From: Acidisoma silvae
Lineage (GTDB): Bacteria; Pseudomonadota; Alphaproteobacteria; Acetobacterales; Acetobacteraceae
Reading direction: 5' to 3'
DNA: 64,000 nt
Assembly: GCF_020618775.1 (NCBI RefSeq)
Contig: NZ_JAESVB010000002.1
Span: 496,001 to 560,000, forward strand
Part shown: positions 7,099 through 48,983 of the stretch, piece by piece
How positions within the stretch are numbered: position 1 is the first letter of the stretch
How the letters are laid out: each line of letters starts with the position of its first letter
The notes under the pieces: model-generated
The model's database searches: none
What the model was told of the DNA's origin: nothing
What the model saw: only the letters and a program-made list of their open reading frames with translations
Translations under genes and position numbers: made by a program

Positions 7099-8328
7099 TC
7101 AGATCTGAATCAGCTTGGTGAAGTTCTGCTGCTCGGCCTGCAACTCGGTCGCATTGGCCTGATAGGCCTGCTGGTATTGAATAAGATCGACCAGCGCCGA
7201 GGAGGTGGAGACATTGGATTGTTCCAGATTGCCGCTCAGCAAAGTGCCGGCCTGGCCAATGCCCGGCGTATTGATGACGGGATCGCCCGAGGTATTGGTC
7301 ACGGCGTACAGATTGCCGCTGACATTCTGCAGCCCTTGCGGATTGATGAAATTCGCCAGCGCCAGCGTGCCGATGGATTGGGTCTGGTTATTGCTATAGG
7401 TCGCTTCCACCGAACCGTCCGACGCGACCGAGGTGCTGAGATAATTACCGGGCGGATAGCCGTTATTCGTCGTGCCAGCGATGGCGAAGCTTTGCGCGCC
7501 GAGCGTGGTGCCGGTGAAATTCACCGCGACCGAGGAACCAGCCGAACCGTTCTGCCAGTCCACGGCGAACGTCGCCGGGCTGCCCGATGACAGCGCACCG
7601 CTGGAATTGAAGGTCAGCGTCGTGAGCAGCGACGGCGCGCTGATCACGCTTCCGCTGGCGCTGACCGGTTCGGCATAGACATTCCAGCTTGGCGTGCCGC
7701 CCGCCGTCGCCGGTGCTTCCTGCTGGAAATAGAGATTGACGGTATTGGGATTGCCAAGACTGTCATAGGAGACGGCAGAGGTAGTTTCGTTATAGGTGCT
7801 GCTATCGCCGGGCACCGGCGTCACCGGGGATGCGAATTGGCTGTCCGCCGCATTCAGACTGACGGTCAGCCCCAGTTTGGAGGTCGCATTGGCGGAAAGC
7901 GACCCGGTATTGACCGTCATCGGCTGCAACGTGCTGCTTTGCGTGCCCGTGGTGGCATCGATGGGATAGCCCATGACGGAAGCGCCGGTCGCCGTCACCA
8001 GCTGGCCGGCATTGCTGAGCTGAAAGGCGCCGTCGCGTGTATATTGCGTCGCCCCGTTATTATCGATGACGAAGTAACCGCTGCCCTGGATCATGCTGTC
8101 GAGGTTATTGCCGGTGGCGATCTGCGTCCCTTGGATGAGATTGGTATCGATGCCGGCGGATTGTGCGCCAATGCCGGGCACGCCGCTCTCGCCCACCGGA
8201 AAAACATCCGAGAACAAGGCCAATTGGCTCTTGAACCCCGTTGTATTGGCATTGGCGAGATTATTGGAAACGGCGTCCAGTCCGGTCTGGGCTGCCGTCA
8301 GCCCCGAAAAGGCGGTGTCCAGACTCAT
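7099..8328 (-). CDS. flgE: Flagellar hook protein FlgE
   Basis: A 409-residue axial protein. It begins MSLDTAFSGLTAAQTGLDAV, followed by SNNLANANTTGFKSQLALFS, the diagnostic hook motif. It has the Thr/Ser/Gly-rich middle typical of hook proteins and the C-terminal helix GNLEQSNVSTSSALVDLIQY. FlgE polymerises into the curved hook under the FlgD cap. It overlaps flgD by 4 nt upstream and is followed immediately by flgF. Confidence 0.95.
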   Translation of the reverse strand: MSLDTAFSGLTAAQTGLDAVSNNLANANTTGFKSQLALFSDVFPVGESGVPGIGAQSAGIDTNLIQGTQIATGNNLDSMIQGSGYFVIDNNGATQYTRDGAFQLSNAGQLVTATGASVMGYPIDATTGTQSSTLQPMTVNTGSLSANATSKLGLTVSLNAADSQFASPVTPVPGDSSTYNETTSAVSYDSLGNPNTVNLYFQQEAPATAGGTPSWNVYAEPVSASGSVISAPSLLTTLTFNSSGALSSGSPATFAVDWQNGSAGSSVAVNFTGTTLGAQSFAIAGTTNNGYPPGNYLSTSVASDGSVEATYSNNQTQSIGTLALANFINPQGLQNVSGNLYAVTNTSGDPVINTPGIGQAGTLLSGNLEQSNVSTSSALVDLIQYQQAYQANATELQAEQQNFTKLIQI

Positions 8329-17534: not shown

Positions 17535-18340
17535 CCGTCCTGCTCGGCCTGCTGATTTCGGTCGGTCTCATCCTGGGCAGCGTCATCATGGATGGCGACA
17601 ACCCGGCCGAACTGATCGGCGTTTCCGCCGCCATGATCGTGATCGGCGGCACCTTCGGCGCGGTCGTCACGCAATTCGGCGTCAGCCGCGCGCTGGTGGC
17701 GGTCAAGGCCGTTCTGGCTCTGCTGAAACCGGCGAAGACCGATATCCAGGCCTTCATCGGCGCGATTGCCGATTGGTCCAATCTGGCCCGGTCGCAAGGG
17801 TCGCTGGCGCTGGAAACCGTGCTCGGCAAAACCCCCGACCCGCTGCAGCAGAAAGGGTTGCAGATGATCATCGACAATACCACGCAGGAGGATCTGCGCT
17901 CCATCTTCAAAATCCTGTCCGACAACGACTTCCGAAAAGACATGATGGCGTCGGAGTTTTTTGAGGCAGCCGGCGGCTATGCGCCCACCATCGGCGTGCT
18001 GGGCGCGGTGCTGGGGCTGATCCATGTCATGACGCGGCTGGATCACCCGGATCAATTGGGCAGCGGCATCGCAACCGCCTTCGTCGCGACCGTCTATGGC
18101 GTCGGCTTCGCCAATATGGTGTTCCTGCCGCTCGGCGCCCGTCTGGCTGCCTTTGCGGAAAGCCGCAGGCGGGAACGGCAGATCGTCATCCAGGGCTTCA
18201 TGCTGCTGGCCGAAGGCAAGTCCGGCACGCTGATCCGCCAGAATCTACAAAGCTTCGTGCCGGAACCCGCGCCCAAAGCCGGCCGCAAGGGCAGCGCCGA
18301 TGACAGCACGCTCGGCGCCGCGGCGGGGCAGGCAGCATGA
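17531..18340 (+). CDS. motA: Flagellar stator protein MotA
   Basis: A 269-residue inner-membrane protein of the MotA/PomA family. Spans are visible at about residues 3-20 and 31-48 (VSAAMIVIGGTFGAVVTQFG) and a closing pair including GGYAPTIGVLGAVLGLIHVM and GIATAFVATVYGVGFANMVF. The cytoplasmic loop between spans 2 and 3 should contact FliG. The length resembles the shorter MotA/PomA type rather than the enteric one. It overlaps fliA and motB by 4 nt each. Confidence 0.92.
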   Translation: MTVLLGLLISVGLILGSVIMDGDNPAELIGVSAAMIVIGGTFGAVVTQFGVSRALVAVKAVLALLKPAKTDIQAFIGAIADWSNLARSQGSLALETVLGKTPDPLQQKGLQMIIDNTTQEDLRSIFKILSDNDFRKDMMASEFFEAAGGYAPTIGVLGAVLGLIHVMTRLDHPDQLGSGIATAFVATVYGVGFANMVFLPLGARLAAFAESRRRERQIVIQGFMLLAEGKSGTLIRQNLQSFVPEPAPKAGRKGSADDSTLGAAAGQAA

Positions 18341-19285
18341 GCAGCGGCGGGCATGACGAAGAGGGCAGCAAAAAGGCCGCCAATCACGAACGCTGGGTGA
18401 TCAGCTACGCCGATTTCATGACGCTGTTGTTTGCGCTGTTCGTCGTGCTCTTCGCGGCATCCTCGCGCAATCGCGCCAGGATGGAGGAGGAGGTGCGAGG
18501 GCTGGTGGCGGCTTTCCACGGCGTCAGTCCGACGGCCAGCAAGCTGCTGGGCGCGACCCAGGGCGTGATGACCCATCAGCCGTCGCCCATACCCAAACCG
18601 ACCGAGACGCCGGCGCCGCGCAGCCCGCATCAGCCGCAGCCCGCGCGGGAAGCGGCCCCTGTCAAACTGCCTGTGCCACCTCAGCCGCGCCGGGCGCAGT
18701 TGTCGCCGCAGCCGGCGGAACCCGCGCCCTTGGCACGCCTGCTGCCCAATAGCCCGTCCCATGCGGTTTTGAGCGAAGCCGTCTCGCACCAATTGGCCGA
18801 GGAATCCCCTCGCCCTCGAACGCGTCAAAGTGGCGTTGGAGACGGTGCTGAGCCCACTGACCAGTGGCCATCAGGTGTCGATCCATGCCTCGCCGCTGAC
18901 GCTGACCATCAATCTGGATGCGGCCGTACTGTTCGATTCAGGCCAGGCGGACCTGCTGCCGACAGCCCGCACGCTGCTGGCCCATGTCGCCGCCAGCCTG
19001 AAGGCTCTGCCACCGCCCTTCACCATCGAATTGCAGGGCTATACCGACAATGTGCCTATCACCACGGCGCAGTTCCGCTCCAACTGGTCGCTGTCGGCCG
19101 AACGCGCCGTCAGCGTCGTGCAGCTTTTCGTCGATGGCGGATTGGACGGCAACCGGCTGACCGCGCAGGGCTTCGGCGAGTTCGAGCCGATTGCCGATAA
19201 TGCGACCGATAGCGGGCGCGCCAAAAACCGCCGCGTCGTCATCGTCATCCGCGCGCCGGATGTGCAGTCACCTCCAGGACCATAG
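18337..19285 (+). pseudogene. motB: Flagellar stator protein MotB, split by a +1 frameshift
   Basis: The first part (from ATG 18337) has the membrane anchor WVISYADFMTLLFALFVVLF, including the proton-binding Asp of SYADFMT, followed by a Pro-rich linker. The peptidoglycan-binding OmpA domain (INLDAAVLFDSGQADLLPTA, ELQGYTDNVPI, NWSLSAERAVSVVQLF) is in the next frame, ending at 19285. The frames meet at a CCCC run (18806-18809): with one C fewer, the sequence reads AEESLALERVKVALETVL without a break, giving 315 residues. As given, the anchor frame runs on as unrelated sequence to 19200, so the stator would lack its wall anchor. It could be a true mutation, a phase-variable run or a sequencing error. 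Confidence 0.85.
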
Positions 19286-22090: not shown

Positions 22091-23296
22091 ATGAGCGCGT
22101 CGCTTTACACCCATTTCCTGGCCAATATCACGCAGCAGGAAGCGACGGTGAACACGCTGGAGCAGCAGATCGCCAGCGGCTATGCCGTGCAGAGTGCCGC
22201 ACAAAACCCCGGGGCTTTCGCGACGGCGACGATCACCAATAACCAGATAACCGCGCTGACGACGCAAAACGCGACCCAAGCCAATATCCAGACCAAGCTC
22301 GGCACCGTCAGCGACAGCTACACCGCCGTCTCGACCCTCTACGATACGGTGCAGTCGGTCATCGAACAGGCCTTAAGCGGCAGCAGCAATGCGCAGGACA
22401 TGCAGGCCTTGTCGCAGCAGGTCTCTGCCGCCGGACAGCAATTGCTGGGCCTCGCCAATGGTACAGCGCCGGACGGCACCTATCTGTTCGGCGGGTCACG
22501 CAATATGCTGGTGCCGTTTCAGACCAATGCCGATGGCACAACGGTCTATCTCGGGGACGGCGGCCAGGGGCAGGCGGCGATTTCGCCGGATACCACGGCC
22601 AGCACGCTGGCCAGCGGCACGGTCTTTACCAATGCGCTGGCCGGCAACGGCTACAGCGTCATTTCCGCCGACGCGAACAATTCCGGCAGCGGCACGCTGC
22701 TGGCCACCGGCATCGTGCAGTCGGCCGCTGCCGCCAGCTTCCAATCCGGCACCACGCCCATCACGCTCAGCTTCGCCGAGGGCGATAGCGGCCTGACCTA
22801 CACGGCAAGCCAGGGTGACACGGTGCTCGCGACCGGCAGCGCCACATCGGGCACCACATTGCAACTGGCCGGGCAGAGTTTCCAGATCAACGGCACGCCG
22901 GATGCGGGCGACAGTTTCACCATCGCGCCCAGCCGTCCGCAGACGGCCTTTGCCCTGCTGCAAAGCATTGCAAGCGCTTTGAGCGCGACCGGCAGTTCCT
23001 CGGCCGACCGCGCGCAGACGACGCAGGCGCTGAACGGCGCGCTGTCGACCCTCGCGCAATATCAGCAGACTCTGCTGACAGCCCAGGCGCAAAATGGCGT
23101 GACCTTGCAAGCCATCGCCAGTGCCGGCACCAGCAACAGCAATCAATCGACGCAATTGCAGCTGACGGTGCAGAATGCCGTCGGTGTCGATATGCCCAGC
23201 GCGCTGACCCAGCTGAACGAGACCATCACCGCCGTCGCCGCCGCCGGAAAATCCTTCGCCGCCGTGCAGAACCTCAGCCTGTTTCAGTATCTGTGA
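22091..23296 (+). CDS. flgL: Hook-filament junction protein FlgL
   Basis: A 401-residue flagellin-family protein starting at ATG 22091 with AGGAGG 8 nt upstream. The N-terminus (YTHFLANITQQEATVNTLEQ then QIASGYAVQSAAQNPGAFAT) is the flagellin D0/D1 signature with IASG in place of LSSG. DGTYLFGGSRNMLVPFQTN is the FlgL-type G-T-Y-L-F-x-G segment. The C-terminus ends SALTQLNETITAVAAAGKSF. It joins hook and filament with FlgK. The open frame extends upstream over fliJ but is not used. Confidence 0.92.
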   Translation: MSASLYTHFLANITQQEATVNTLEQQIASGYAVQSAAQNPGAFATATITNNQITALTTQNATQANIQTKLGTVSDSYTAVSTLYDTVQSVIEQALSGSSNAQDMQALSQQVSAAGQQLLGLANGTAPDGTYLFGGSRNMLVPFQTNADGTTVYLGDGGQGQAAISPDTTASTLASGTVFTNALAGNGYSVISADANNSGSGTLLATGIVQSAAAASFQSGTTPITLSFAEGDSGLTYTASQGDTVLATGSATSGTTLQLAGQSFQINGTPDAGDSFTIAPSRPQTAFALLQSIASALSATGSSSADRAQTTQALNGALSTLAQYQQTLLTAQAQNGVTLQAIASAGTSNSNQSTQLQLTVQNAVGVDMPSALTQLNETITAVAAAGKSFAAVQNLSLFQYL

Positions 23297-23306
23297 GGCC
23301 GGGCGC

Positions 23307-26300
23307 ATGTCGGACGCCATTTTCATTGCCGGCTATTATCGCAGCGGCACGTCGGCGCTTTCCGGCATGCTGCAGAAATTGGGCGTCACCATCCATAACG
23401 ACGCCGACCCGAATGAGCATAACCCACGCGGCTTCTATGAAATTCCCGAGCTGATCGAGTTCGACGTCGATCTGTTCAATCGCCTCGGCATGCAATGGGC
23501 CGATCTGCGCAGCCTGCCACCCGACTGGCATGAACGGGCCGATATGCCCGGGTTTCTGTCCCGGCTGGGCGAAATCATCCGCCGGCGCTTCGCGCAGGAA
23601 CCGCTCTGGGCAATCAAGCATCCGCATCTCTGCCGGCTTTTGCCGCTGTATGAGCGGGCGGCGCGGGAAGCGGGCCACCGTCCGCATGCGCTTCATATCA
23701 GCCGCGACCCCTGGACCGTCGCCGCCAGTCAGCACAAAAAGAACGGCCTGTCGCGCTCTCACGCTTTGCTGCTGTGGGCAAGTTACAGCATCGCAGCGGA
23801 ACGGCAGACGCGCGGCCTGAAACGCAGTTGGCTGACTTATGCACAGCTGCTGAAAGCCCCTCTCGATCAGGTCAGGAAGATCGAGGACGATCTGGGGCTG
23901 GCTTTGATCGATCGGCGCCCGCAAGGTCGTCGCGAGGCGATCGCGACCCTCACGCTGCAGCTTGATCGCAGCAAGCCGGTGGATCAGGACCGGATGCTGA
24001 CGCCGCTGCATCGGCTTGTGGATGGCATGTGGCAGGCCTTGCAGGACGAGGATGCGACAGACACGACCTGGGACGGTTTCGCGCAATCCTGCGCCGAAAT
24101 GGTCGATTTCGTCGTCGAACTGGCCGAGAGCAAAGGGCCGGTTCTGCCCTGGGTCAGCCATCAGCCCGCGCCCTTGGCCAAGACGGCCGAGGGTTCGGCG
24201 GCGGGGCTGCGCCCGGCCGAGCGGCTGGACGCGGGCGCCCGCGCCAGGCTGGCAGCGCTGGCCGCCGAAAGCGGCGCGCTGCCGCGTCTTTGCGTCATCA
24301 TCGTGGCGCCTACGGCGCGTGCGCATGCCATCGCCGAAAGCCTGCAATCGCTGCGTCAGCAATGGCACGCGCCCACGGCGATTAGGCTGCTCACCAGCGA
24401 GGATAGCGACCTGCCCGATCTCGTCACGACGCGGGTGGCCGCCGAGGCCGGTGCGATCACCGCCGCGCTCTGTGCCATGGCGAATGCTCTGGCAGAGAGC
24501 GCCGACTATGTCGCCGTTCTCAATGCTGGCGACATCATCTCGCCCGATGCCTGTCTGCGCTTCGCCCTGGAGGCGCAGCGCACGGCGGCCGATATGCTCT
24601 ATTGCGACGAAATCGTGCCGCGCGATACCGGCCCCTGGATCAGGCACAAGCCGGCCTGGGAACCCACGCGCCTGCGCCAGTCGCCCTTCATCGGCGACTG
24701 GGTCTGGTATGGCACAGAGGCCCTGGCGCGTATCGGCGGTTTCGATCCAGCCTTTGCCGGGGCTGAGGAATTCGACCTCCATTTGCGACTGAGCGAGGCC
24801 GGCGCCACGGTTGTGCGTCTGCCGGAGGCGCTGTTCACCCGCAGTGCGCTCAGCCGGCGCGACAATATCCCCTCCACGCTTTTCATGGCGCGGGCCGAAG
24901 GCGCCATCGCCGCCAGCCTGGCGCGCTCGGGACTGGACGGGGCGGTGGTGGCGCGGCCTTTTCCGGGCCTGTATCGCCATCACCGCAAGGTCGCCGATCC
25001 CGGCACATCCACCATCCTGCTCTGCGATCAGGCCGAGGTCGCCGCCATCGACCATTGGCTGCGCGCCATGTTGATGACCACGGTGCTGACCGGGCCGATC
25101 ATCCTGGCGGGCGCCGACCTGCCATTCGCGACCGCGACCTTTTTTCAGCAGATCGCCGATAAGGCCGAAGCCCTGGAACACAAGGTTCTGGCCGTGGCGC
25201 CCGCCCCTGGGCTGACCACCGGCGATGCGCTGCGTCACGCCCTGGCTTTAGTACTGACGGCGCATGTCGCCATCATCGACGCCCGCGCTCAGGCCCAGGC
25301 GCCCGAATGGCGGGAAGGCTTGCGCAGCCGGCTGGCCGATCCGCGCGTCGGGCTTGTCGGCGCCCGCACGCTGGCCCCCCTGCTGGCGGACCGCACGCGC
25401 TTTACCGTGCAAGGGCCGATCATCATCGGCGCCGATAGCCGCATGGGGGCGGGCCACCTGTCGGATGACCCAGGCCCGGGCGGCTGGCTGGCCGTGGACC
25501 AGGAGGCGAGCGCCCTGGCCCCGCCGGCTTTGCTGGCCAGACGGCACGTGCTGGCCGGTTGCGACATCCCCAGCCTTTCTGGCGACGCGCTGTGGATCGA
25601 TCTCGGCGCGCAGATCCGGGCCGCCGGCCATGCGCTGGTCTGGACGCCCGATGTCTCCTTCATCATCGCCGGGCAGACCATCCGCGCCGATTACGAGGGC
25701 CAGTTCCGCCTGGGCAGCCCGGTCGCCCGCAGCTTGCCCTGGGAGGATCCCTTCCATCATCCGGCTTTGTCGCTGCATGGCGATCTGCTGGCACCGGAAC
25801 AGCGGCCGGGCCTTGTCCGCGCAACGCCAGCCGACAGAAGCAGCCTGCTGCTCAGCGGCCCTCCGGTAGCCGGCCAACCGGTCTTCAACGCCGCCCGCGC
25901 CTTGCGGGGTGCCGGTCTCATCGCAGCCTCCTGGACAGCGGATATCGTCATGCCCGGCGAACTCGGCCGCCGCGCGCCCAGTCTGTGGCTGCGCATCAAT
26001 CCGGAGGATGGCGCTATTCCGCATGCGCCGGCTTTTGACGCCATCTTCACCCGCGCGCCGCACCCTGACAGCAAGCCGGTGCTGACGGCGGCCGACAGGC
26101 TTTACGCGACCTCGTCCGGCTTGCAGGCACAGCTGCGCAAACTGCTGCCGCCCAGCCGGCCCGTGACGCTATGGCAACCAGCTCTGTCTCGCCCGATCTG
26201 GCAGGACCTGGCCATCGGCAGCGGCATCAACAGCCGCCCGCGCATTCTGTGGATCGACGAAGGCATCGGGCCGCCCTGGCTCATCGACCTTATCAACGAG

Positions 26301-26750
26301 ACGCAAAAAGATGCCCTCTGGATCGTCATCGAGCGGCCTGGCGGCATCTATACCGGCGGCGTCACCCGCCTGCGCGCGCCCGACAGCGAGGAAGCCTGGG
26401 CTGCCGAACTCGGCGCGCTCGCGCCGCATCTGCTCGTCCGGCCGGTGGACCAGGACCAGGACGCGGCAGCCGATTGCTATGTCACCCTGATGGCCGCCGC
26501 TGCCGGCTGCCGGCTGCTGCTGGATGACCGGCTGGACCACCCGGACAGCCTGCCGGCGCAACGCCTGCCCAACCGGCTGGCCGCCTGGCAGCGCGCCATC
26601 CGCACGGCCCTCGAGGATTTTCCGCAGACATTGACCCAGGGCAAGGAAACGCGGGCAGCCGCGCTATCTCTGCCGGCCATGGAGGAGACCACGCCACCCT
26701 GGGCGGTGTTTCCGGCCTCTGCCCTGCGAGCGCCACGGGCCGCGGAATGA
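23307..26750 (+). CDS. Sulfotransferase-glycosyltransferase fusion in the flagellar cluster
   Basis: A 1147-residue multidomain protein. Residues 1 to about 220 look like a sulfotransferase: AGYYRSGTSAL (8-18) is the 5'-phosphosulfate loop for PAPS, and SRDPWTVAASQHKKNG (132 onward) is the 3'-phosphate segment. Residues about 325-560 resemble a GT2 glycosyltransferase (LNAGDIISPDACLRF at 405; YCDEIV at 432; GGFDPAFAGAEEFDLHLRLS near 477). Residues about 600-800 look like a second, degenerate GT2 half (VGLVGARTL near 681, HALVWTPDVSFI near 775). The last 300 residues are less clear, possibly GT4-like. It lies between flgL and flgA in the same direction, so modification of flagellin or another axial protein is the natural inference, unproven. 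Confidence 0.7.
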   Translation: MSDAIFIAGYYRSGTSALSGMLQKLGVTIHNDADPNEHNPRGFYEIPELIEFDVDLFNRLGMQWADLRSLPPDWHERADMPGFLSRLGEIIRRRFAQEPLWAIKHPHLCRLLPLYERAAREAGHRPHALHISRDPWTVAASQHKKNGLSRSHALLLWASYSIAAERQTRGLKRSWLTYAQLLKAPLDQVRKIEDDLGLALIDRRPQGRREAIATLTLQLDRSKPVDQDRMLTPLHRLVDGMWQALQDEDATDTTWDGFAQSCAEMVDFVVELAESKGPVLPWVSHQPAPLAKTAEGSAAGLRPAERLDAGARARLAALAAESGALPRLCVIIVAPTARAHAIAESLQSLRQQWHAPTAIRLLTSEDSDLPDLVTTRVAAEAGAITAALCAMANALAESADYVAVLNAGDIISPDACLRFALEAQRTAADMLYCDEIVPRDTGPWIRHKPAWEPTRLRQSPFIGDWVWYGTEALARIGGFDPAFAGAEEFDLHLRLSEAGATVVRLPEALFTRSALSRRDNIPSTLFMARAEGAIAASLARSGLDGAVVARPFPGLYRHHRKVADPGTSTILLCDQAEVAAIDHWLRAMLMTTVLTGPIILAGADLPFATATFFQQIADKAEALEHKVLAVAPAPGLTTGDALRHALALVLTAHVAIIDARAQAQAPEWREGLRSRLADPRVGLVGARTLAPLLADRTRFTVQGPIIIGADSRMGAGHLSDDPGPGGWLAVDQEASALAPPALLARRHVLAGCDIPSLSGDALWIDLGAQIRAAGHALVWTPDVSFIIAGQTIRADYEGQFRLGSPVARSLPWEDPFHHPALSLHGDLLAPEQRPGLVRATPADRSSLLLSGPPVAGQPVFNAARALRGAGLIAASWTADIVMPGELGRRAPSLWLRINPEDGAIPHAPAFDAIFTRAPHPDSKPVLTAADRLYATSSGLQAQLRKLLPPSRPVTLWQPALSRPIWQDLAIGSGINSRPRILWIDEGIGPPWLIDLINETQKDALWIVIERPGGIYTGGVTRLRAPDSEEAWAAELGALAPHLLVRPVDQDQDAAADCYVTLMAAAAGCRLLLDDRLDHPDSLPAQRLPNRLAAWQRAIRTALEDFPQTLTQGKETRAAALSLPAMEETTPPWAVFPASALRAPRAAE

Positions 26751-27436
26751 GACAGGCGGCCGCAAGCCTCGTGCTGTTTTGTCTAGCGGCATCCGGCAGC
26801 GCCCTGGCCAATGCGTCGCGTCACGAAGATCCCAGTGCCGTCACCAGCGCCGTGCGGCAGGCCGCGGCACAGACGGCACCCGCCCAGGCGGCCATCACCC
26901 TCGGCCCGGTTGCCGCCGCGCAGTATATGCCGGCCTGCACGGTGCCACTCAGCGTCACCATCAGCGGCATGGAACCCTATCAGCAGGCGGCGGTGCATTG
27001 CGCGGCACCGATCTGGACGCTGTATGTCAGCGTCACCGTCGACAGCCGCATGGCGATCGTGGTCGCCGCCCAGCCCATTGCCGGCGGCAGCGCGATTACG
27101 CCCGATGATGTCACGCTCCAGGACGAACCTTTATCGCTCTATGCCGGCCGGCAGGTCTATCGCCATATCCAGGACGTAACCGGCGCCATTGCCGTGCTGT
27201 CTTTGCCGCGCGGCGCTATCCTGACCAGCACCACCGTGCAGCAGCCCGTCGTGGTGCAGGCCGGCCAGACCATTGCCGTCGATGTGCGGAGCGGCGCTGT
27301 CGACGTGACGCTGGAAGCCCGCGCCGAGCAATCGGGGCGCATCGGCGACAGCATCATGGTCGCCAATCCAACCACCGGAAAACGGTTCCAGGCGACGGTC
27401 ACGCCGAATGGCGCCGTCGTCCAATTGGGATCTTAG
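26747..27436 (+). CDS. flgA: P-ring assembly chaperone FlgA
   Basis: A 229-residue exported protein. The N-terminus (SLVLFCLAASGSALANA) is a signal peptide with cleavage likely after ALANA. The C-terminal half has the SAF fold: QPIAGGSAITPDDVTLQDEP, LPRGAILTSTTVQQPVVVQA and VRSGAVDVTLEARAEQSG, followed by GDSIMVANPTTGKRFQATV, the FlgA terminal motif. FlgA chaperones FlgI in the periplasm. Here it is far from flgI, placed before flagellin, and overlaps the fusion gene by 4 nt. Confidence 0.9.
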   Translation: MRQAAASLVLFCLAASGSALANASRHEDPSAVTSAVRQAAAQTAPAQAAITLGPVAAAQYMPACTVPLSVTISGMEPYQQAAVHCAAPIWTLYVSVTVDSRMAIVVAAQPIAGGSAITPDDVTLQDEPLSLYAGRQVYRHIQDVTGAIAVLSLPRGAILTSTTVQQPVVVQAGQTIAVDVRSGAVDVTLEARAEQSGRIGDSIMVANPTTGKRFQATVTPNGAVVQLGS

Positions 27437-27498: not shown

Positions 27499-28965
27499 AT
27501 GTCCGCCGTCGGCTCGATCCTGACCAACCAGGGCGCCTTGAATGCCCTGAACTCGATTACCGCCACCAACAATCTCAACAATTCGCTGGAACAGCAGCTC
27601 TCCAGCGGCTTGTCGATCAATTCGCCCGCGGACAATCCGGCAGGCTATATCACGGCGCAGGGCTTTACCTCCCAGTTGAACGGGCTGACCCAGGCCGTTT
27701 CCAATGCCAATCAGGGCGTCAGCCTGCTACAAACGGCGGAAGGCGCCTTGCAGCAGCAGATCGGCGTCGTGCAGCAGCTCAATTCCATTGCCGTGCAGGC
27801 CGCCAACGGCACGCAGAGCGCGTCGGAATCCCAATCGTTGCAGAATGTGGTGACGCAATTGACCGGGCAGGTCACCACCATTGCGTCCCAGACGCAGTTC
27901 AACAATATCAGCTTGTTGGACGGCACCTTCAGCGGCGTTCAGTTTCAGGTCGGCGCCAACGAGGGCCAGACGCTGAGCCTGAGCATCGGCAATACCAGCG
28001 CCAATACCATCGGCCTCAACCAGTCCTCGGCTTCGGCCGCCATTTTCGGCGCCGGCAAGACGACGGGCGTGCTGACGACCTTCGCCGCCGCCAATGCTGC
28101 GACGGCGGGCGCCTTCGCGGCCGGCAATGTCAGCTATACCGGCAATAACGGCTATACCGGCACCATCACGGCCGCCGCCAATAGTTCCGCCGCCGCGCTG
28201 GCCACCAAGATCAACAATCTTGCCAGCAAGACGGGCGTGACCGCCCAGGCGACCAATAGCGTGACCTTGAAAGCGACCGCCGGCACGAACGGTTTTGCTT
28301 TCAAAATTCAGGGCAGCGGCAGCGCGCAGACGATCAACGCGACGACGGTGTCGGCGCTGGCGGCGCAGATCAATGGCCAGACCGGGACGACGGGCATTTC
28401 CGCCACTGTCTCGACCAATGGCGCCTCGATCTCGCTCACTCAGGCGAATGGCAAGAATATCGTCATTACCGGCGTCACCTCGGGCAGCCTCAGCGCCTCG
28501 GCCCAAGGCACAAGCGCCACGCATAATGTCCTCAAATCCACAGCAGGTTCGGCCAGCGGCGTCATTCAGGGCCAGGTCGAAGTGCAATCCAGCGCTGCCT
28601 TCAGCGTCACCAACGGCAACGCCATCGGGTTGAGCGGGGGATCGAAATTGACATCCCTTGCCGATATCAATGTCACGACGACGGCTGGCGCCGATACCGC
28701 CATCAATGTCGTGAAATTCGCGCTTCAGGGCCTGAACAACCAGGGCGGCGTGCTGGGCGCGGCGCAGCAAAGGCTGACAGCGAGCATCAATAATCTCAAT
28801 ACCAGTAGCCAGAACGTCACCAGCGCGCTTGGCGTCGTGCAGGATGCGAATATCCCGCAGGTCAGCAACCAGCTGACACAGGCGCAGATTCAGGCGCAGG
28901 CCGGCGTGGCGGCGCTGAAAAGCTCCACCACCCTGCAGCAATCCTATCTGTCTCTGCTACCGTAA
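27499..28965 (+). CDS. fliC: Flagellin
   Basis: A 488-residue flagellin. The N-terminal D0/D1 region (NQGALNALNSITATNNLNNS, LEQQLSSGLSINSPADNPAG) carries the LSSGLxIxSxxDxPAG signature, and the C-terminus (LGVVQDANIPQVSNQLTQAQ then IQAQAGVAALKSSTTLQQSY) is the matching D0 helix. The Ser/Thr/Ala/Asn-rich middle (about residues 180-400) is the surface domain and offers many possible glycosylation sites. It is driven by a sigma-28-type promoter at 27438-27464 and followed by a hairpin. It is the only flagellin gene in the window. Confidence 0.95.
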   Translation: MSAVGSILTNQGALNALNSITATNNLNNSLEQQLSSGLSINSPADNPAGYITAQGFTSQLNGLTQAVSNANQGVSLLQTAEGALQQQIGVVQQLNSIAVQAANGTQSASESQSLQNVVTQLTGQVTTIASQTQFNNISLLDGTFSGVQFQVGANEGQTLSLSIGNTSANTIGLNQSSASAAIFGAGKTTGVLTTFAAANAATAGAFAAGNVSYTGNNGYTGTITAAANSSAAALATKINNLASKTGVTAQATNSVTLKATAGTNGFAFKIQGSGSAQTINATTVSALAAQINGQTGTTGISATVSTNGASISLTQANGKNIVITGVTSGSLSASAQGTSATHNVLKSTAGSASGVIQGQVEVQSSAAFSVTNGNAIGLSGGSKLTSLADINVTTTAGADTAINVVKFALQGLNNQGGVLGAAQQRLTASINNLNTSSQNVTSALGVVQDANIPQVSNQLTQAQIQAQAGVAALKSSTTLQQSYLSLLP

Positions 28966-42938: not shown

Positions 42939-42965
42939 GCGTCATGGCTTATTCATCTAGATGTC
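42939..42965 (+). promoter_or_regulatory. phnD control region: weak PHO-type repeat and TCTAGA operator
   Basis: GCGTCAT (42939-42945), 4 nt, then TATTCAT (42950-42956) has the 7-4-7 layout of a PHO box but only 9 of 14 consensus matches. It overlaps TTCATCTAGATGTC (42952-42965). The reverse complement of that, GACATCTAGATGAA, matches GACGTCTAGATGAA before phnG (46810-46823) at 13 of 14 positions. The shared word marks a likely common regulator of both phn transcription units. Confidence 0.5.
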
Positions 42966-43051
42966 AAAAAGATCCTTGGATCTTCGGGCTAGAGAGCGAA
43001 CAGACCGCGCCGCCTCCCACCACGGCGCGTAAAGCCAAGGAACCCGTCCCT

Positions 43052-43960
43052 ATGCGCAAACTGCTCCAGGGCGCCGCCTGTTCGGCGCTTTTCGGCTTCG
43101 CGACGCTCGTCGCGTCCAGCGCTTCCGCGCTGGCAGCCAGCCCCTGCCCGGGCGGCGTCATCCATTACGGCGTCATCCCCTATGATGCCTCGGCCGCCTT
43201 CGTGCCGCTGTATCACAAGATCGCGGACCTCATCTCCAAGCAGATGGGCTGCCCGGTCGATCTGGAAATCGGTACCAGCTACAATGCGACCATCGAAGCC
43301 ATGCGCGCCGGCAAGGTCGACATCGCCGAATTCGGTCCGCTGAGCTATATCCTGGCGTCCAAGATCGCCGGCGCGCAGGTCGTCGCGACCTATGCCAAGC
43401 CGGACGGCACGCCCGATACCTATACCGCCAGCGTCGTCACCTGGCCGGGCTCCGGCATCACCACCCTGAAGGGCGTTGCCGGCCATACTTTCGCCTATTC
43501 CGACCCCGCTTCGACCTCCGGCCATCTTTTCCCGGCCTATGCGCTGAAGAGCGCCGGCATCGACCCCGACCATGGCGTTCAGGCCGTTTATGCCGGCAGC
43601 CATACGGCGAGCTATGAGGCCCTGCTGCATCACAAGGTGCAGGCCGGCGAAATCAACAGCCAGGAAATCATTTCTGCCCAGGTCGCCGGCATCTATCAGC
43701 CGTCCGACTTCGTGACGCTGTGGACCAGCGCCCCGATTCCTGATGACCCGGTGACGGTGCGCGGCAATCTGCCCGCCGCCTACAAGGCCAAGCTCGCCGA
43801 TGTGCTCGGTCATCTCGACCTTTCCAGCATCCCGGCGGCCGAGCTCAAGATCACCGGCCTTAAGGGCAAAGGTTACGTCGCCATCGATGACAAGGCCTAT
43901 GACGGCATCCGCAGCCTCGTCTCGGTGCTGCATCTTGACCTCGCCAAGATGGGTTCATGA
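43052..43960 (+). CDS. phnD: Phosphonate ABC transporter binding protein PhnD
   Basis: A 302-residue periplasmic binding protein starting at ATG 43052, where the frame gives a proper signal peptide (LLQGAACSALFGFATLVASS, cleavage near ALAAS). IHYGVIPYDASAAFVPLYHK, VDLEIGTSYNATIEAMRAGK and VDIAEFGPLSYILASKIAG are PhnD features, and AYSDPASTSGHLFPAYALKS is the ligand-pocket segment with S-x-S-G/TSGH. It delivers phosphonates to PhnCE. It overlaps phnC by 4 nt. Confidence 0.93.
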   Translation: MRKLLQGAACSALFGFATLVASSASALAASPCPGGVIHYGVIPYDASAAFVPLYHKIADLISKQMGCPVDLEIGTSYNATIEAMRAGKVDIAEFGPLSYILASKIAGAQVVATYAKPDGTPDTYTASVVTWPGSGITTLKGVAGHTFAYSDPASTSGHLFPAYALKSAGIDPDHGVQAVYAGSHTASYEALLHHKVQAGEINSQEIISAQVAGIYQPSDFVTLWTSAPIPDDPVTVRGNLPAAYKAKLADVLGHLDLSSIPAAELKITGLKGKGYVAIDDKAYDGIRSLVSVLHLDLAKMGS

Positions 43961-44727
43961 GCCAACCGCTCATTGAGGTTTCCGGCCTGGCCATGCGCTA
44001 CCCCACGGGGCGCATGGCTTTGACGGATGCAAGCCTGACGGTGAACGCCGGCGAATTGGTCGTCATTCTGGGCGCCAATGGCTGCGGCAAGTCAACGCTG
44101 CTGCGCTGCGTCGCCGGCATGCTGCAGCCGACAGCCGGCCGCGTCACCGTTGCCGGCAGCCCGATCTCGAACTTGACGGGGCAACGTCTGGCCGACGCGC
44201 GCATGGCGCTCGGCATGGTGTTTCAGAACGCGAATCTGGTGAAGCGCCGCAGCGTCATCGCCAATGTCATGGCCGGCACGCTGGGCCGGCACCGGAACTG
44301 GAAGACGGCGCTCGGCTTGCTGCCGCACAGCGAAAGGCCCTTCGCGGAACGCTGCCTGGACGAAGTGGGCTTGCTCGGCTTCGCCGACCAGCGCGCCGGC
44401 ACGCTGTCCGGCGGTCAGGCGCAGCGGTGCTCCGTCGCGCGCGCGCTCGCTCAACGCCCGCTGGCTTTGCTGGCGGATGAGCCGGTGGCCGCCTTGGACC
44501 CGGAAGCCGCCGAAGGACTGATGAGCCTGCTGAAGCGCCTGGCGCATGAGGACGGATTGGGCATTCTCTGCGTGCTGCATCAGCCCGATCTGGCGCGCCG
44601 CCATGCCGACCGCATTCTCGGCATGAAAGACGGCCGCGTGCTGTTCGACGAAAAGCCCAGCGATGTGCAGGAAGTCGCCGTCTCGGCCCTTTACGCCAAA
44701 GCGCCGCTCGAAACCCTGCCCGCGTGA
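43957..44727 (+). CDS. phnC: Phosphonate ABC transporter ATPase PhnC
   Basis: A 256-residue ABC ATPase. Walker A is GANGCGKST, the signature is LSGGQAQRCSVARALAQRPL, Walker B is ALLADEPVAALDPEAAE and the switch His is in CVLHQPDLARRHADRI. MVFQNANLVKRRSVIANVMA then GTLGRHRNWKTALGLL is characteristic of PhnC. It energises uptake of phosphonates by PhnE. Order phnD-C-E matches a standard phn transporter. Confidence 0.94.
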   Translation: MSQPLIEVSGLAMRYPTGRMALTDASLTVNAGELVVILGANGCGKSTLLRCVAGMLQPTAGRVTVAGSPISNLTGQRLADARMALGMVFQNANLVKRRSVIANVMAGTLGRHRNWKTALGLLPHSERPFAERCLDEVGLLGFADQRAGTLSGGQAQRCSVARALAQRPLALLADEPVAALDPEAAEGLMSLLKRLAHEDGLGILCVLHQPDLARRHADRILGMKDGRVLFDEKPSDVQEVAVSALYAKAPLETLPA

Positions 44728-44759
44728 ACCGGCTGCCCGGAATAGGTTGAATTGACATC

Positions 44760-45572
44760 ATGCTGAACACCGCTTCCGTGAACGACGTGCTGCCCGGTGC
44801 TGCCCAGGCGCGACGGCGCCTGCATCCCATGACCTTCGTGCTGCTTTTTCTGGGTGCGGCGCTGTTCCTGCAATCGGCCTTCGTGGTCCATGCCCGGCCG
44901 CAGGATCTGATCACGGGTGCCGCCGGCATCGCCGATATCCTGCACCGCTCCTTCCCGCCGGATTTCGCGGGCCTGCCTGACGCGCTGTGGCCGGCGCTTG
45001 AGACGATCGACATGGGCATTTTCGGCACGGCTATTGCCCTGGTCTTCGCCCTGCCGCTGGCGCTGATCGCGGCGCGCAATACCACGCCGGCCAAGCCGCT
45101 TTATTTCCTGGCGCGCGGCCTCATCGCGCTGGCTCGCGTCGTGCCCGATCTGGTCTGGGCGCTGATCTTCGTCACCGCCGTCGGCCTCGGCCCCTTCCCC
45201 GGCGCGCTCGCCATCGTCATCCACAGCCTTGGCATGATGGGGCGGCTGTTCGCTGAAACCATCGAGGATATCGACATGGGGCCGGTGGAAGCATTGACCA
45301 TGACGGGCGCCAGCCGCCTCGCCGTTTTCAGCCATGGCGTTATCCCGACCGTGATGCCGTCGCTGCTCGGCATTACGCTCTATCGTCTGGATGAGAATAT
45401 CCGTTCCTCGCTCATCCTTGGCTTCGTCGGCGCCGGCGGCATCGGCTTTCAGCTTCTGACGGCGATGAACCTGTTCCAGTATCGCACCGTCTCCATGCTG
45501 CTCGTGCTGACCTTCATCATCGTCGTCGGTGCCGAGCGCATCTCCGCTGCCTTGCGGCAGCGGATTGCATAG
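44760..45572 (+). CDS. phnE: Phosphonate ABC transporter permease PhnE
   Basis: A 270-residue permease with about six spans. MTFVLLFLGAALFLQSAFVV is the first; ETIDMGIFGTAIALVFALPL, ARVVPDLVWALIFVTAVGLG and LGFVGAGGIGFQLLTAMNLF are later membrane parts. The inner-membrane coupling motif EALTMTGASRLAVFSHGVIP (E-A-x-x-x-x-G) is present. The 32-nt gap after phnC contains no obvious promoter. Only one phnE is present here. Confidence 0.93.
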   Translation: MLNTASVNDVLPGAAQARRRLHPMTFVLLFLGAALFLQSAFVVHARPQDLITGAAGIADILHRSFPPDFAGLPDALWPALETIDMGIFGTAIALVFALPLALIAARNTTPAKPLYFLARGLIALARVVPDLVWALIFVTAVGLGPFPGALAIVIHSLGMMGRLFAETIEDIDMGPVEALTMTGASRLAVFSHGVIPTVMPSLLGITLYRLDENIRSSLILGFVGAGGIGFQLLTAMNLFQYRTVSMLLVLTFIIVVGAERISAALRQRIA

Positions 45573-45584
45573 GCAGGCGACCGG

Positions 45585-46730
45585 TCAATGCAGGCGGGCA
45601 GCCCCTTCGGCCGAGAGATAGGCCAGCTTCCCGCCGGCAATGGTCGCGACGATACGCGGGGCAGGCTCGGTGCTGACCACCACCAGATCGCCGCGCAGGC
45701 CGGGCGCGATGCGACCGCGATCGGCCAGCCCCGCCGCCTTCGCCGGATTGGCCGAGATCAGCGCCCAACGCTCAGCCAAGCCGTTCTCGCCATGACGCTC
45801 AGCCATGATGAAGGCAGCGCGCAGCATCGCCGGGTAGAAATAATCGCTCGTCAGAATATCGCAGAAACCGGCTTCCACCGTCTCGGCCGCGCCGGACCAG
45901 CCCATATGCGATCCGCCGCGCACGACATTGGGACTGCCCATGATGACGTGATCGCCGGCCTCGGTCGCGGCCTTTGCCACCTCGATGCTCATGGGGAAGT
46001 CGGAAATGCGGGCACCCATGGCACGGAAAGCGTCGCGATCCGCGACGGTCGCATCATCATGGCTCGCCATGGGCAGACCGGCCTGGCGGGCGGCTTCCGC
46101 CAGACGCGCCATGGCCGCCGGCACCTGATCCGCCAGCTTGCCGATTTCGGTCGCATGCGCCCGAAAGGCATCGAGTTTCATGCCCGCGCGCTCGCTGTAT
46201 TTCGCACCGGCCGCGTCATTGCCCATCTTCCGCAGAATGGTCGGCGTGTGATCGTTGATGGAAAACAGATGCACATCGCCGTTCTCGATGCCCCGCAGGG
46301 CGAGATCGAGCGCCGGCAGGTTGTAGGTTTCCCAGCGCAGATGAATGCGCATGTCGCAGCTCTGACGCGGACGATTGGCGCGCAGCGCCGCCAACAGGCT
46401 AGTCCAGGTTTCGGCGCTGCGCAGCCCCTGCTCCCAGGACAAGGTCACGCCATGAAAGGTTGTGGTGATGCCGTTGGCGAGCAGCTGCGCCTCGGTCTCG
46501 GCCACCGCCAGATCCATCGGGAAGCTGACGCCGGGGCGCGGCTGCACCTGCCGCTCGAAGGCGTCGCCATGCAGGTCGATGATGCCGGGCAGAACCAGCA
46601 GGCCGGAGGCATCGATGCGGCGCCCAGCGCCGGACGCCTCGGCAATAAGGCCGTCCCGCACACCGATATCGGCGGCGACCAGCCCCTGATCGGCCAGCAG
46701 GGCGCGTCCACCCGTGATCGCAAGTTCCAT
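45585..46730 (-). CDS. phnM: PhnM-like amidohydrolase, extra copy on the opposite strand
   Basis: A 381-residue amidohydrolase-superfamily protein. LVLPGIIDLHGDAFERQVQP then RPGVSFPMDLAVAETEAQLL carries the H-x-x-x-x-E-R motif of PhnM, and MASHDDATVADRDAFRAMGA, GSPNVVRGGSHMGWSGAA and CDILTSDYFYPAMLRAAFIM are typical. In C-P lyase pathways PhnM removes pyrophosphate from the ribose phosphonate 5-triphosphate intermediate. A second phnM lies in the operon at 51305. This copy is divergent from phnG and convergent with phnE, and differs clearly (for example LHGDAFER here, LHTDNLER there), so it may act on another substrate. Confidence 0.85.
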   Translation of the reverse strand: MELAITGGRALLADQGLVAADIGVRDGLIAEASGAGRRIDASGLLVLPGIIDLHGDAFERQVQPRPGVSFPMDLAVAETEAQLLANGITTTFHGVTLSWEQGLRSAETWTSLLAALRANRPRQSCDMRIHLRWETYNLPALDLALRGIENGDVHLFSINDHTPTILRKMGNDAAGAKYSERAGMKLDAFRAHATEIGKLADQVPAAMARLAEAARQAGLPMASHDDATVADRDAFRAMGARISDFPMSIEVAKAATEAGDHVIMGSPNVVRGGSHMGWSGAAETVEAGFCDILTSDYFYPAMLRAAFIMAERHGENGLAERWALISANPAKAAGLADRGRIAPGLRGDLVVVSTEPAPRIVATIAGGKLAYLSAEGAARLH

Positions 46731-46761
46731 GACTTAGCCTTCCTTTTTCGTCGTCCGGTCG

Positions 46762-46779
46762 ATGTCAATCGATTGTCAT
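46762..46779 (+). promoter_or_regulatory. PHO-box-like direct repeat upstream of phnG
   Basis: ATGTCAA (46762-46768), TCGA, TTGTCAT (46773-46779): two 7-mers related to CTGTCAT with the 4-nt spacer and 11-bp period of a PhoB binding site. It lies between the divergent extra phnM (starts at 46730) and phnG (starts at 46836). In many bacteria PhoB activates phn operons under phosphate limitation. Confidence 0.5.
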
Positions 46780-46803
46780 TGACTTTAACCGGACAGGTCG
46801 TAA

Positions 46804-46823
46804 TGTCTAGACGTCTAGATGAA
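46804..46823 (+). promoter_or_regulatory. Tandem TCTAGA operator in front of phnG
   Basis: TGTCTAGACGTCTAGATGAA holds two TCTAGA palindromes (46806-46811 and 46814-46819) at 8-bp spacing. The right part, GACGTCTAGATGAA (46810-46823), is repeated with one mismatch in reverse orientation before phnD (42952-42965). It sits downstream of the PHO-type element and 13 nt before the phnG ATG, a good place for a repressor. PhnF-type GntR regulators control such operons elsewhere; no phnF gene is in the window. Confidence 0.55.
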
Positions 46824-46835
46824 TTCTGGGTGACG

Positions 46836-47291
46836 ATGTTGACACAGGACTTCTTGAACCGCCGCCGCACTTGGATGGCGACCCTTGCCCGGGCGGAGCG
46901 TTCGGCGATCGAGGCGCAGCTATCGGCAGAGCCGGCCTTGCCTGACCATACCCGCCTGCGAGGCCCGGAAGCCGGTCTCGTCATGGTGCGGGGCCGTATG
47001 GGCGGCAGCGGCGCGCCCTTCAATCTCGGAGAGATGACAGTCACGCGCTGCACCATCCGCAATGCGCGCGGCCAGATCGGCCATGCCTATATCGCCGGGC
47101 GCGACGGGCAGAAGGCGGAACTGGCAGCCGCCCTGGATGCCGCCCTGCAAGACCCGGACGATGGTGCTGGGCTTGAGGCAAGGGTGATCGCGCCTTTGGC
47201 TGAAGCCTTGACCCAGGCGGACAAGGCGATACGCGCAGAGGCGGAAGCCACGCGCGTCGATTTCTTCACTTTGGCGACGATGCGGTCATGA
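46836..47291 (+). CDS. phnG: C-P lyase core subunit PhnG
   Basis: A 151-residue protein from ATG 46836; the frame is open far to the left across the extra phnM but that part is not coding here. RRRTWMATLARAERSAIEAQ begins like PhnG, and GRMGGSGAPFNLGEMTVTRC then TIRNARGQIGHAYIAGRD is the family core. With PhnH, I and L it forms the complex that attaches phosphonate to the ribose of ATP. First gene of the phnG-N operon, overlapping phnH by 4 nt. Confidence 0.94.
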   Translation: MLTQDFLNRRRTWMATLARAERSAIEAQLSAEPALPDHTRLRGPEAGLVMVRGRMGGSGAPFNLGEMTVTRCTIRNARGQIGHAYIAGRDGQKAELAAALDAALQDPDDGAGLEARVIAPLAEALTQADKAIRAEAEATRVDFFTLATMRS

Positions 47292-47860
47292 CGCTCGAAA
47301 AACCCGGCTTTATCGATCCCGTCGCCGAAGCGCAGGCCTGCTTCCGCCTGGTGCTGCGCACCATGTCGAGCCCCGGCCAAATCGTCACGCTGGCGACCGA
47401 TGTCGCGACACCGCCGCTGGCTCCCGCCACCGCCGCCGTGCTGCTGACGCTGGTGGATGCCGAAGTCTCGCTCTGGCTGGATGAGCCCCTGGCCGATAGC
47501 TGGGACTGGCTGGCCTTCCATGCCGGCGTCGTGCGTGCCGCGGATATCGGCACGGCCGCTTTCCTCTGCACGACCGCACTGCCGCCACTGGCCGATGTGT
47601 TCGCCGGTACCGATGACGCACCGGAAACGGGTGCCACCATCATCCTGCAAGTGCCCGCGCTGGACGGCGGCCCGAAGCTGACCCTCTACGGCCCCGGTCT
47701 GGAAACGCCGATCGTGATCGCGCCGCAGGGTCTGCCTGCGGATTTCATCGCCCAATGGGAGCAGAACCACCGCCTTTTTCCGCGCGGTGTCGATCTGCTG
47801 CTCTGTGCGGGTTCTTCATTCTGTGCCCTGCCGCGAAGCGTCAGGATCGGGGAAGGCTGA
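47288..47860 (+). CDS. phnH: C-P lyase core subunit PhnH
   Basis: A 190-residue protein. PGFIDPVAEAQACFRLVLRT then MSSPGQIVTL matches the PhnH start (F-R-x-x-M-x-x-x-x-x-P-G), and RFPRGVDLLL-type NHRLFPRGVDLLLCAGSSFC then ALPRSVRI is the PhnH ending with F-P-x-G-x-D. PhnH is a subunit of the PhnGHIJ complex. ATG overlaps the phnG stop. Confidence 0.94.
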   Translation: MTLEKPGFIDPVAEAQACFRLVLRTMSSPGQIVTLATDVATPPLAPATAAVLLTLVDAEVSLWLDEPLADSWDWLAFHAGVVRAADIGTAAFLCTTALPPLADVFAGTDDAPETGATIILQVPALDGGPKLTLYGPGLETPIVIAPQGLPADFIAQWEQNHRLFPRGVDLLLCAGSSFCALPRSVRIGEG

Positions 47861-47864
47861 GACA

Positions 47865-48983
47865 ATGGCTTATGTTGCCGTCAAAGGGGGTGAGCGTGCG
47901 ATCGACGCCGCTCATGACTGGCTTGCGCGCACAAGACGCGGTGAGACAGCGGTGCCCGAGATCAAGACCGATCAGATCGCGGAACAGCTTGGCCGCGCCG
48001 TCGATCGCGTCATGGCCGAAGGCTCCTGCTACGACCGTGATCTGGCGGCGCTGGCCATCAAACAGGCCCAGGGCGATCTGATCGAGGCCGCCTTCCTGCT
48101 CCGCGCCTATCGCACCACCTTGCCACGCTTCGCCTCCTCCCGCCCGGTCGAGACGAGTGCGATGCTGATCCATCGCCGCATCTCGGCCATCTACAAGGAT
48201 CTGCCGGGTGGCCAGGTGCTGGGGCCGACCTATGACTATACGCATCGCCTGCTGGATTTCGCGCTGGCTGCTGACGCCGACAGCGCCATGGTGCCAGCGG
48301 CGGTGCCATCATCCACCGAAGCGGATCAGTCACCGCCTGCCGTCACGCCGCGCGTGCTGGATATGCTGCAAGCTGAAGGGCTAATGGGCGCCGAACCACA
48401 GAGCGACGCTGTGCCCGGCGATATCACCCGCGAACCGATGTCCTTTCCGGCCGGACGCGATATCCGTTTGCAGGCGCTGGCCCGGGGCGACGAAGGCTTT
48501 CTGCTGGCACTCGGCTATTCCACCCAGCGGGGCTACGGCAATAGCCATCCCTTCGTCGGCGAACTGCGCATGGGTGATGTCTCCATCGAAATCGAACCGC
48601 CCGAGCTTGGCTTTGCCATCGATATCGGCCGCATCACGCTGACGGAATGCGAGATGGTCAATCAATTCGGAGGATCGAAGACGGAACCGCCGCAATTCAC
48701 GCGCGGCTACGGCCTGTGCTTCGGCCATGGCGAGCGCAAGGCCATGGGCATGGCCCTGGTCGATCGTGCCATGCGCGCCGAGGAGTTGGGGGAAGACGCG
48801 GATGCGCCGGCCCAGGACATCGAATTCGTTTTGTACCACAGCGACAATATCGAGGCGACCGGCTTCGTCGAGCATCTGAAGCTGCCGCATTACGTCGATT
48901 TTCAGAGTGAACTCGAAACGATCCGTCAGATCCGGCGGCGTGCCGAGACAAAACCTGACACGGGTGCAGGAGAGCCGCAATGA
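47865..48983 (+). CDS. phnI: C-P lyase core subunit PhnI
   Basis: A 372-residue protein starting at ATG 47865, 4 nt after the phnH stop, giving MAYVAVKGGERAIDAAHDWL. Family motifs include LAALAIKQAQGDLIEAAFLL then RAYRTTLPRF, RRISAIYKDLPGGQVLGPTY, LGYSTQRGYGNSHPFVGELR and YHSDNIEATGFVEHLKLPHY. PhnI, with PhnG and PhnL, forms ribose-1-phosphonate triphosphate from ATP and phosphonate. It overlaps phnJ by 4 nt. Confidence 0.95.
   Translation: MAYVAVKGGERAIDAAHDWLARTRRGETAVPEIKTDQIAEQLGRAVDRVMAEGSCYDRDLAALAIKQAQGDLIEAAFLLRAYRTTLPRFASSRPVETSAMLIHRRISAIYKDLPGGQVLGPTYDYTHRLLDFALAADADSAMVPAAVPSSTEADQSPPAVTPRVLDMLQAEGLMGAEPQSDAVPGDITREPMSFPAGRDIRLQALARGDEGFLLALGYSTQRGYGNSHPFVGELRMGDVSIEIEPPELGFAIDIGRITLTECEMVNQFGGSKTEPPQFTRGYGLCFGHGERKAMGMALVDRAMRAEELGEDADAPAQDIEFVLYHSDNIEATGFVEHLKLPHYVDFQSELETIRQIRRRAETKPDTGAGEPQ

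Follow-up and report, generated by a model that had tools for sequence, protein, structure and literature searches.

What is a protein with a sulfotransferase-like domain doing in the middle of a flagellar operon? The question is raised by the open reading frame (ORF) at 23307–26750 on the forward strand of the window, a stretch of 64,000 nucleotides (nt) of Acidisoma silvae DNA (contig NZ_JAESVB010000002.1, positions 496,001 to 560,000) from an assembly of 5.4 Mb in 82 contigs. The ORF encodes 1147 amino acids (aa) without an internal stop, carries AGYYRSGTSAL at residues 8–18 and SRDPWTVAASQHKKN at residues 132–146, and lies between flgL and flgA with a 4-nt overlap into the latter, all of which agrees with an original prediction made from the sequence alone. 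We give a probability of about two in three to the reading that this enzyme, judged by its sequence, is an Fgt-like flagellar glycosyltransferase (GT) in which the first GT2 domain was exchanged for a sulfotransferase dependent on 3′-phosphoadenosine-5′-phosphosulfate (PAPS), and that it would attach a sulfated sugar to flagellin or to one of the hook-associated proteins. What the analysis establishes is the gene structure, the conserved motifs, the synteny, the co-occurrence and the co-linear homology. Three flagellar genes frame the argument:

22091–23296, forward strand: flgL (Pfam Flagellin_N), the direct upstream neighbour of the enzyme gene, with a gap of 10 nt in the window
26747–27436, forward strand: flgA (Pfam), its first 4 nt shared with the enzyme gene
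27499–28965, forward strand: flagellin (Pfam), a candidate acceptor very poor in charged residues

Conserved position and the tie to one flagellum type

Besides the window, 28 full-length relatives were found, namely 26 loci in 25 other genomes and the contigs L031 and L032 of metagenome-assembled genomes (MAGs), spread over four genera (g1, g92, g82 and g120) plus the two MAG contigs; 26 aligned relatives are 33–62% identical to the window protein. Near-identical loci (e.g., L101 and L102) are counted separately, and the 28 loci are not 28 independent events. The enzyme gene directly follows flgL in all 28 relatives (gap of 10–39 nt), so that none of them lies away from flagellar genes. flgA comes next in 27, the contig ending at this point in L100, and an in-frame flgA start is present at −4 nt in 21 of the 28. 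The closer of the two labelled relatives, L031 from a bog MAG labelled Acetobacteraceae, shares 55% identity over the whole protein. L032 is labelled Paracoccaceae, but its enzyme groups with those of genera g82 and g120 of the window's family, and either a mislabelled MAG or a transfer would account for this. One orthologue, in L091 (genome G430), has an internal stop after residue 1018, past which the match goes on in frame. No record in a plasmid collection covers 80% of the protein; the 20 matches listed are to a GT2 protein or to sulfotransferase or hypothetical genes, and the only FlgL relatives among the plasmids are 4 Cupriavidus records at 25–28% identity.

The enzyme is tied to one type of flagellum. 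Full-length copies occur in 10 genomes (11 loci) of 299 genomes of the family, and a draw of the same size and genome labels contains FlgI at E up to 1e-30 in 234 of 299. A FlgI at least 60% identical to that of the window is found in exactly the 10 enzyme-bearing genomes (11 loci), against 0 enzymes in the 224 genomes that hold only the other FlgI type, which among the matches listed is at most 42% identical to that of the window. Likewise, all 4 genomes with a window-type FlgL, of 160, carry the enzyme. The pattern holds within genera: G002–G004, from the genus of the window, have neither the full-length gene nor FlgI at E up to 1e-30; genus g82 has enzyme and flagellum type together in G245 and G276 and neither in G085, G160 and G208; and genus g120 has both in G418 and G479 (FlgI 61% identical in L102) and neither in G123, G179, G221 and G311. 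G245 harbors both flagellum types and a single enzyme, which adjoins the 60% FlgI. Since the genomes are related, these counts are not independent. In a draw of 289 genomes of the class the enzyme was found in the window's own genome only, as was FlgI at E up to 1e-75, and the class draw thus offers no outgroup flagellum of the window type. A separate observation concerns G212, which holds two copies of this flagellar cluster (L070 on C3 and L071 on C6), each with its own sulfotransferase-GT gene.

Domain architecture and kinship with flagellar glycosyltransferases

Four parts can be distinguished in the protein, all on the forward strand:

23307–24176, forward strand: sulfotransferase-like domain (residues 1–290) with PAPS-site motifs
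24204–25031, forward strand: GT2a domain (about residues 300–575), motifs kept, with profile matches to tandem GT2 proteins
25014–25706, forward strand: GT2b-like domain (about residues 570–800), degenerate, matching the second GT2 of tandem GT2 proteins
25839–26636, forward strand: C-terminal degenerate GT-B-like part (about residues 845–1110), aligning with the C-termini of L125 and L124 (see below)

The sulfotransferase-like, GT2 and degenerate GT2-like domains had been predicted to share one polypeptide, and they do; the C-terminal ~300 residues, which are GT-B-like, had been missed.

In cytosolic sulfotransferases, the Arg/Ser pair of the 3′-phosphate motif is spaced by 8. The window protein has R133 and S141 as its 3′-phosphate pair, together with the 5′ PAPS-loop YYR[ST]GTS (residues 10–16), KHPH (104–107) and KN (145–146), and the PAPS-site motifs, including the loop and the R133/S141 pair, are kept in all 29 aligned sequences. 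Invariant positions take their largest share in this region (56 of 280, vs. 34 of 265, 16 of 260 and 27 of 297 in the others); these conservation counts, like alignment A1, leave out L091 with its internal stop and L100 at its contig end, both of which are included in the 29-row motif counts. The domain is 34% identical (E 8e-29) to a gene on a Paracoccus plasmid that is annotated as a sulfotransferase. In the GT2a domain, DE (434–435), GDWVWY (463–468) and EE (487–488) are present in 29 of 29 sequences and NAGD (406–409) in 27, with AAGD in L101 and L102. The second Asp of the DxD motif is absent from the GT2b-like domain in all 29 aligned sequences, and a Pfam search of the window protein gave nothing relevant over residues about 845–1110.

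A profile of the GT region found matches in 11 of 150 genomes of the phylum, including the window's own genome and one of its family. The best two outside the own genome, L124 and L125, belong to family f173, which from the look of its genes is probably Pseudomonadaceae. The protein of L124 has 1186 aa, and its gene comes about 97 nt behind flgL; that of L125 has 1176 aa, and fliC and fliD come after its gene. Further f173 matches lie directly before fliC-fliD (L133) and about 8.5 kb before fliC (L130). Comparison by hhalign aligned residues 319–1115 of the window protein with 330–1164 of L124 (probability 99.5, E 4e-23, 767 columns) and residues 311–1119 with 317–1158 of L125 (probability 99.7, E 6e-26, 773 columns). 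Both relatives start with a canonical GT2, whereas the window protein has its sulfotransferase-like domain there, and their C-termini match Pfam Glyco_trans_1_2 weakly, below the cut-off. Of the 44 GT regions in a tree, 9 rows of the enzyme and 4 flagellar f173 rows stand opposite the 31 others with support of 95/76, a grouping by sequence that is suggestive only. One GT row with too little coverage was dropped from this tree, L019 fell below the threshold, and the 1422-aa protein of L140 and the GT of L035 are not in it. The flagellar role that had been proposed is supported by the place after flgL in every one of the 28 relatives, by the tie to a single flagellum type and by co-linearity with flagellar multi-GT proteins. 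It had also been held that flagellar glycosylation genes usually encode separate proteins; the large single-polypeptide GTs of L124, L125 and L133 contradict this, as do the GT41-methyltransferase fusions reported for enterobacterial flagellin islands (PMC4875605).

Six other loci from the phylum search (L126, L127, L128, L129, L131 and L132) showed no flagellar markers in neighbourhoods that covered all places except G873 C1, two places in G068 and G000 C32. As side observations, L142, from a genome that lacks the flagellum type of the window, has a FlgC-like match near position 19710, ~7 kb away from a tandem GT2 gene of 1170 aa, and the window's own genome encodes a further tandem GT2 protein of 1019 aa (L038, 8174–11230), with close relatives in G001, G003 and G004 (L039, L008 and L013). 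The surroundings of L038 contain no flagellar genes, only FliI- and CheY-like cross-matches.

Counterevidence, alternative readings and candidate acceptors

Several results weigh against an Fgt-like sulfotransferase-GT that modifies the flagellum. The predicted domains were matched in Pfam searches, yet in the window protein itself below the curated cut-offs: Sulfotransfer_3 scored 23 bits against a cut-off of 27 (E 1e-4), with 26 of 27 orthologues matching at E up to 0.1 (best 1e-7), and the GT2 models reached E 0.0007 to 0.06 with the isolated region. An AlphaFold2 model of the full-length protein (3 sequences) is unusable, with a mean predicted local distance difference test (pLDDT) of 38.5, and confirms neither fold; a model of the sulfotransferase domain (mean pLDDT 55.4) is too poor to confirm the fold. 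In the tree, the grouping of enzyme and flagellar GT rows is not starred. The tandem GT2 module is also widespread away from flagellar genes: among the 31 other rows, none of the 18 with checked surroundings adjoins flagellar genes, and the remaining 13 have no flagellar markers in about 1.5 kb on each side. The non-flagellar L126 matches the C-terminal part weakly (E 9e-4), and its grouping with the enzyme was not rejected in the approximately unbiased test (p-AU 0.16). PAPS supply in the carriers is plausible: adenosine 5′-phosphosulfate (APS) kinase was seen in 25 of the 26, G418 being the exception, but the kinase also occurs in 11 of 14 controls. Fusions of sulfotransferase, GT2 and GT2 exist elsewhere, in L035 (G011) and L131 (G850). 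Finally, just 17 of the 28 relatives have flagellin downstream on the strand of the enzyme gene; it is on the other strand in L032, it was not found within 7–8 kb downstream in seven (L031, L072, L073, L097, L099, L101 and L102), and in the other 3 the contig ends.

Fold comparisons bear on whether the sulfotransferase domain might sulfate a protein directly, for instance on tyrosine, or only aid binding while the GT alone modifies the flagellum. A Foldseek search with the low-confidence domain model found nothing at E up to 0.001. VIA-align of the same poor model gave Z scores of at most 6.1, with tyrosylprotein sulfotransferases (TPST) at 5.1–5.4 (3ap3: 109 residues, 3.2 Å). These weak TPST matches, and the tyrosines present in FlgL (10) and flagellin (4), would suit direct sulfation. 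However, the TPST scores are tied with those of unrelated P-loop proteins such as kinases and designed P-loop proteins (5.1–6.1), the PAPS-site motifs are invariant in the best conserved part of the protein, and sequence relatives of the domain are fused to or placed beside GTs (L035, L131 and L128). We therefore regard direct sulfation or an inactive domain as improbable. Sequence searches of the PDB found no significant match, the best profile match being to a chondroitin synthase over the GT2a region (E 0.23), and a search for viral relatives of the sulfotransferase domain, meant to deepen the alignment, found none.

The relatives just named show that a sulfotransferase and GT2 domains also occur together away from flagella. 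L035 and L131 resemble the window enzyme in having an N-terminal sulfotransferase-like domain and a tandem GT2, and differ in their setting, with no flagellar markers within the 19 and 16 kb examined. L128 (4735–8113), in an apparent polysaccharide cluster, encodes a stand-alone sulfotransferase and a tandem GT2 protein in overlapping genes, an unfused equivalent of the window enzyme, and L051 and L145 contain a fusion of sulfotransferase and WbsX. The recurrence of sulfotransferase and tandem GT2 as a pair supports their joint action on a glycan, and it also leaves the flagellar linkage, rather than the fusion itself, as what is new. Grouping of the enzyme with the non-flagellar fusion L131 was rejected (p-AU 0.0009), which indicates a separate fusion event for L131. 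Polysaccharide-like clusters with related genes (L128 and L131), along with the sulfated surface polysaccharides and the lipopolysaccharide sulfotransferase LpsS of Sinorhizobium, described in PMC5498481, could point to an enzyme that modifies surface polysaccharide and is only a passenger in the flagellar operon. Against this speak the unchanged position in all 28 relatives and the tie to flagellum type (10 of 10 genomes vs. 0 of 224), and we consider it highly improbable.

The location of flagellin, together with the constancy of FlgL and FlgA as neighbours in all lineages, raises the alternative that the same chemistry is directed solely at a hook-associated or hook protein, most likely FlgL, and not at flagellin. 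Serine and threonine content agrees with this as well: the middle of the flagellin is indeed as rich in them as the original prediction had it (28.4% over residues 151–400), but FliD (29.9%), FlgL (24.9%), FlgE (24.2%) and FlgK (23.1%) are similarly rich. The richness is thus not distinctive and is weak evidence; we rejected it as an argument for flagellin. In Pseudomonas, however, fgt1 and fgt2 lie in the flgL-fliD cluster and Fgt1 nonetheless acts on a serine of flagellin, according to PMC3927599, so that the gene slot does not name the acceptor. Restriction to a hook-associated acceptor is in our estimate rather unlikely, and under the preferred reading of a flagellar sulfotransferase-GT the likely acceptor is flagellin or a hook-associated protein.

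The candidate acceptors share a low content of charged residues. In the window, Lys plus Arg and Asp plus Glu amount to 2.3% and 2.0% in flagellin (27499–28965), 1.2% and 4.7% in FlgL (22091–23296), and 1.0% and 5.6% in the hook protein (7099–8328). Carrier flagellins average 3.9% charged residues (range 2.8–6.2, n = 18), vs. 7.3% in the sole canonical flagellin found in the family and 17% in that of L125. Carriers are also lower than canonical proteins in FlgG (8.0 vs. 17.6%; n = 3 and 3), FlgH (11.9 vs. 19.9%; n = 3 and 2) and FlgI (13.9 vs. 17.8%; n = 3 and 12), and FlgE does not differ (9.1 vs. 9.7%; n = 2 and 3); few canonical proteins enter the comparison (flagellin 1, FlgG 3, FlgI 12).

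The wider window is flagellar and chemotactic. Its Pfam gene order runs MotA, MotB plug, FliH, FliI-type ATPase, FlgL, enzyme, FlgA, flagellin and FliD, and CheD and CheW are present as well. The motB gene (18337–19285, forward strand) seems frameshifted, its plug and OmpA-like domains lying in different frames that are one frame in L031, L033, L065 and L066; this appears to be either a real frameshift or an assembly error. Beyond the chemotaxis genes, at 42944–49822, come genes for phosphonate uptake and for C-P lyase (PhnG, H, I and J).

Proposed mechanism, known systems and meaning

Catalysis, acceptor, sugar, order of steps and translational coupling we infer as follows. The enzyme would be built on the GT2-GT2-GT-B scaffold of multi-GT proteins linked to flgL or fliC, with the N-terminal GT2 swapped for a sulfotransferase. 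It would be co-produced with FlgL and FlgA and stay in the cytoplasm, because no signal peptide is evident. Before export, GT2a may add a sugar to Ser or Thr in flagellin or in a hook-associated protein (FlgL, for example), with GT2b and the GT-B-like part presumably serving as scaffold or acceptor-binding modules, and the sulfotransferase domain would then move sulfate from PAPS onto the sugar added by GT2a.

Bacterial flagellar glycans carry many kinds of decoration, and the flagellin glycosyltransferase of P. aeruginosa is known as FgtA. Pseudomonas Fgt1, Fgt2 and FgtA have, like the window enzyme, their place in the stretch from flgL to fliC. The P. syringae genes fgt1 and fgt2 belong to the flgL-fliD cluster, ahead of fliC, and a flagellin serine receives rhamnose from Fgt1 (PMC3927599). 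The likeness in co-linear GT2-GT2-GT-B order is drawn through L124, L125 and L133 and not through the Fgt1 or FgtA sequences themselves, and the window enzyme is unlike the Fgt type in that a sulfotransferase replaces the N-terminal GT2 and the GT-B part is degenerate. Enterobacterial flagellin islands contain methyl-, acetyl- and formyltransferases and the GT41-methyltransferase fusions mentioned above, which likewise join a glycan-decorating domain to a GT at a flagellin locus but use another GT family and another decoration; no word in the main text of the source begins with 'sulf' (PMC4875605).

In Halobacterium salinarum the archaellin glycan is sulfated. Sulfotransferases of this species act on the N-glycan of archaellins and other glycoproteins (PMC11980604 and PMC6591318), a system that resembles the proposed one in placing a sulfated glycan on a swimming filament but is archaeal and N-linked, with separate sulfotransferases and an unrelated filament. 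No report of sulfated bacterial flagellin was found in the literature searched, which consisted largely of listings. Three papers in it that name both sulfotransferase and flagella do so in unconnected contexts, namely a motor protein screen, the sporangium polysaccharide of Actinoplanes and the surface polysaccharide of Sinorhizobium.

What purpose might sulfation serve? Since the flagellin has almost no charged residues, sulfate could supply the surface charge of the filament. We tentatively suggest, as possible rather than probable, a second, lineage-specific flagellum of the Acetobacteraceae whose sulfated glycan is obligatory and is the product of an Fgt-like enzyme, and in which sulfate, ionised at low pH unlike carboxylates, would charge the almost uncharged filament and keep it soluble in acid. 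An acid-proof charge is attractive as a purpose but unproven. With a sulfotransferase that keeps its place in a flagellar operon and accompanies a single flagellum type, sulfation of flagella becomes open to direct testing. The enzyme also shows how one catalytic module can be exchanged for another on a flagellar GT scaffold, and it hints at how a filament might be charged in acid.

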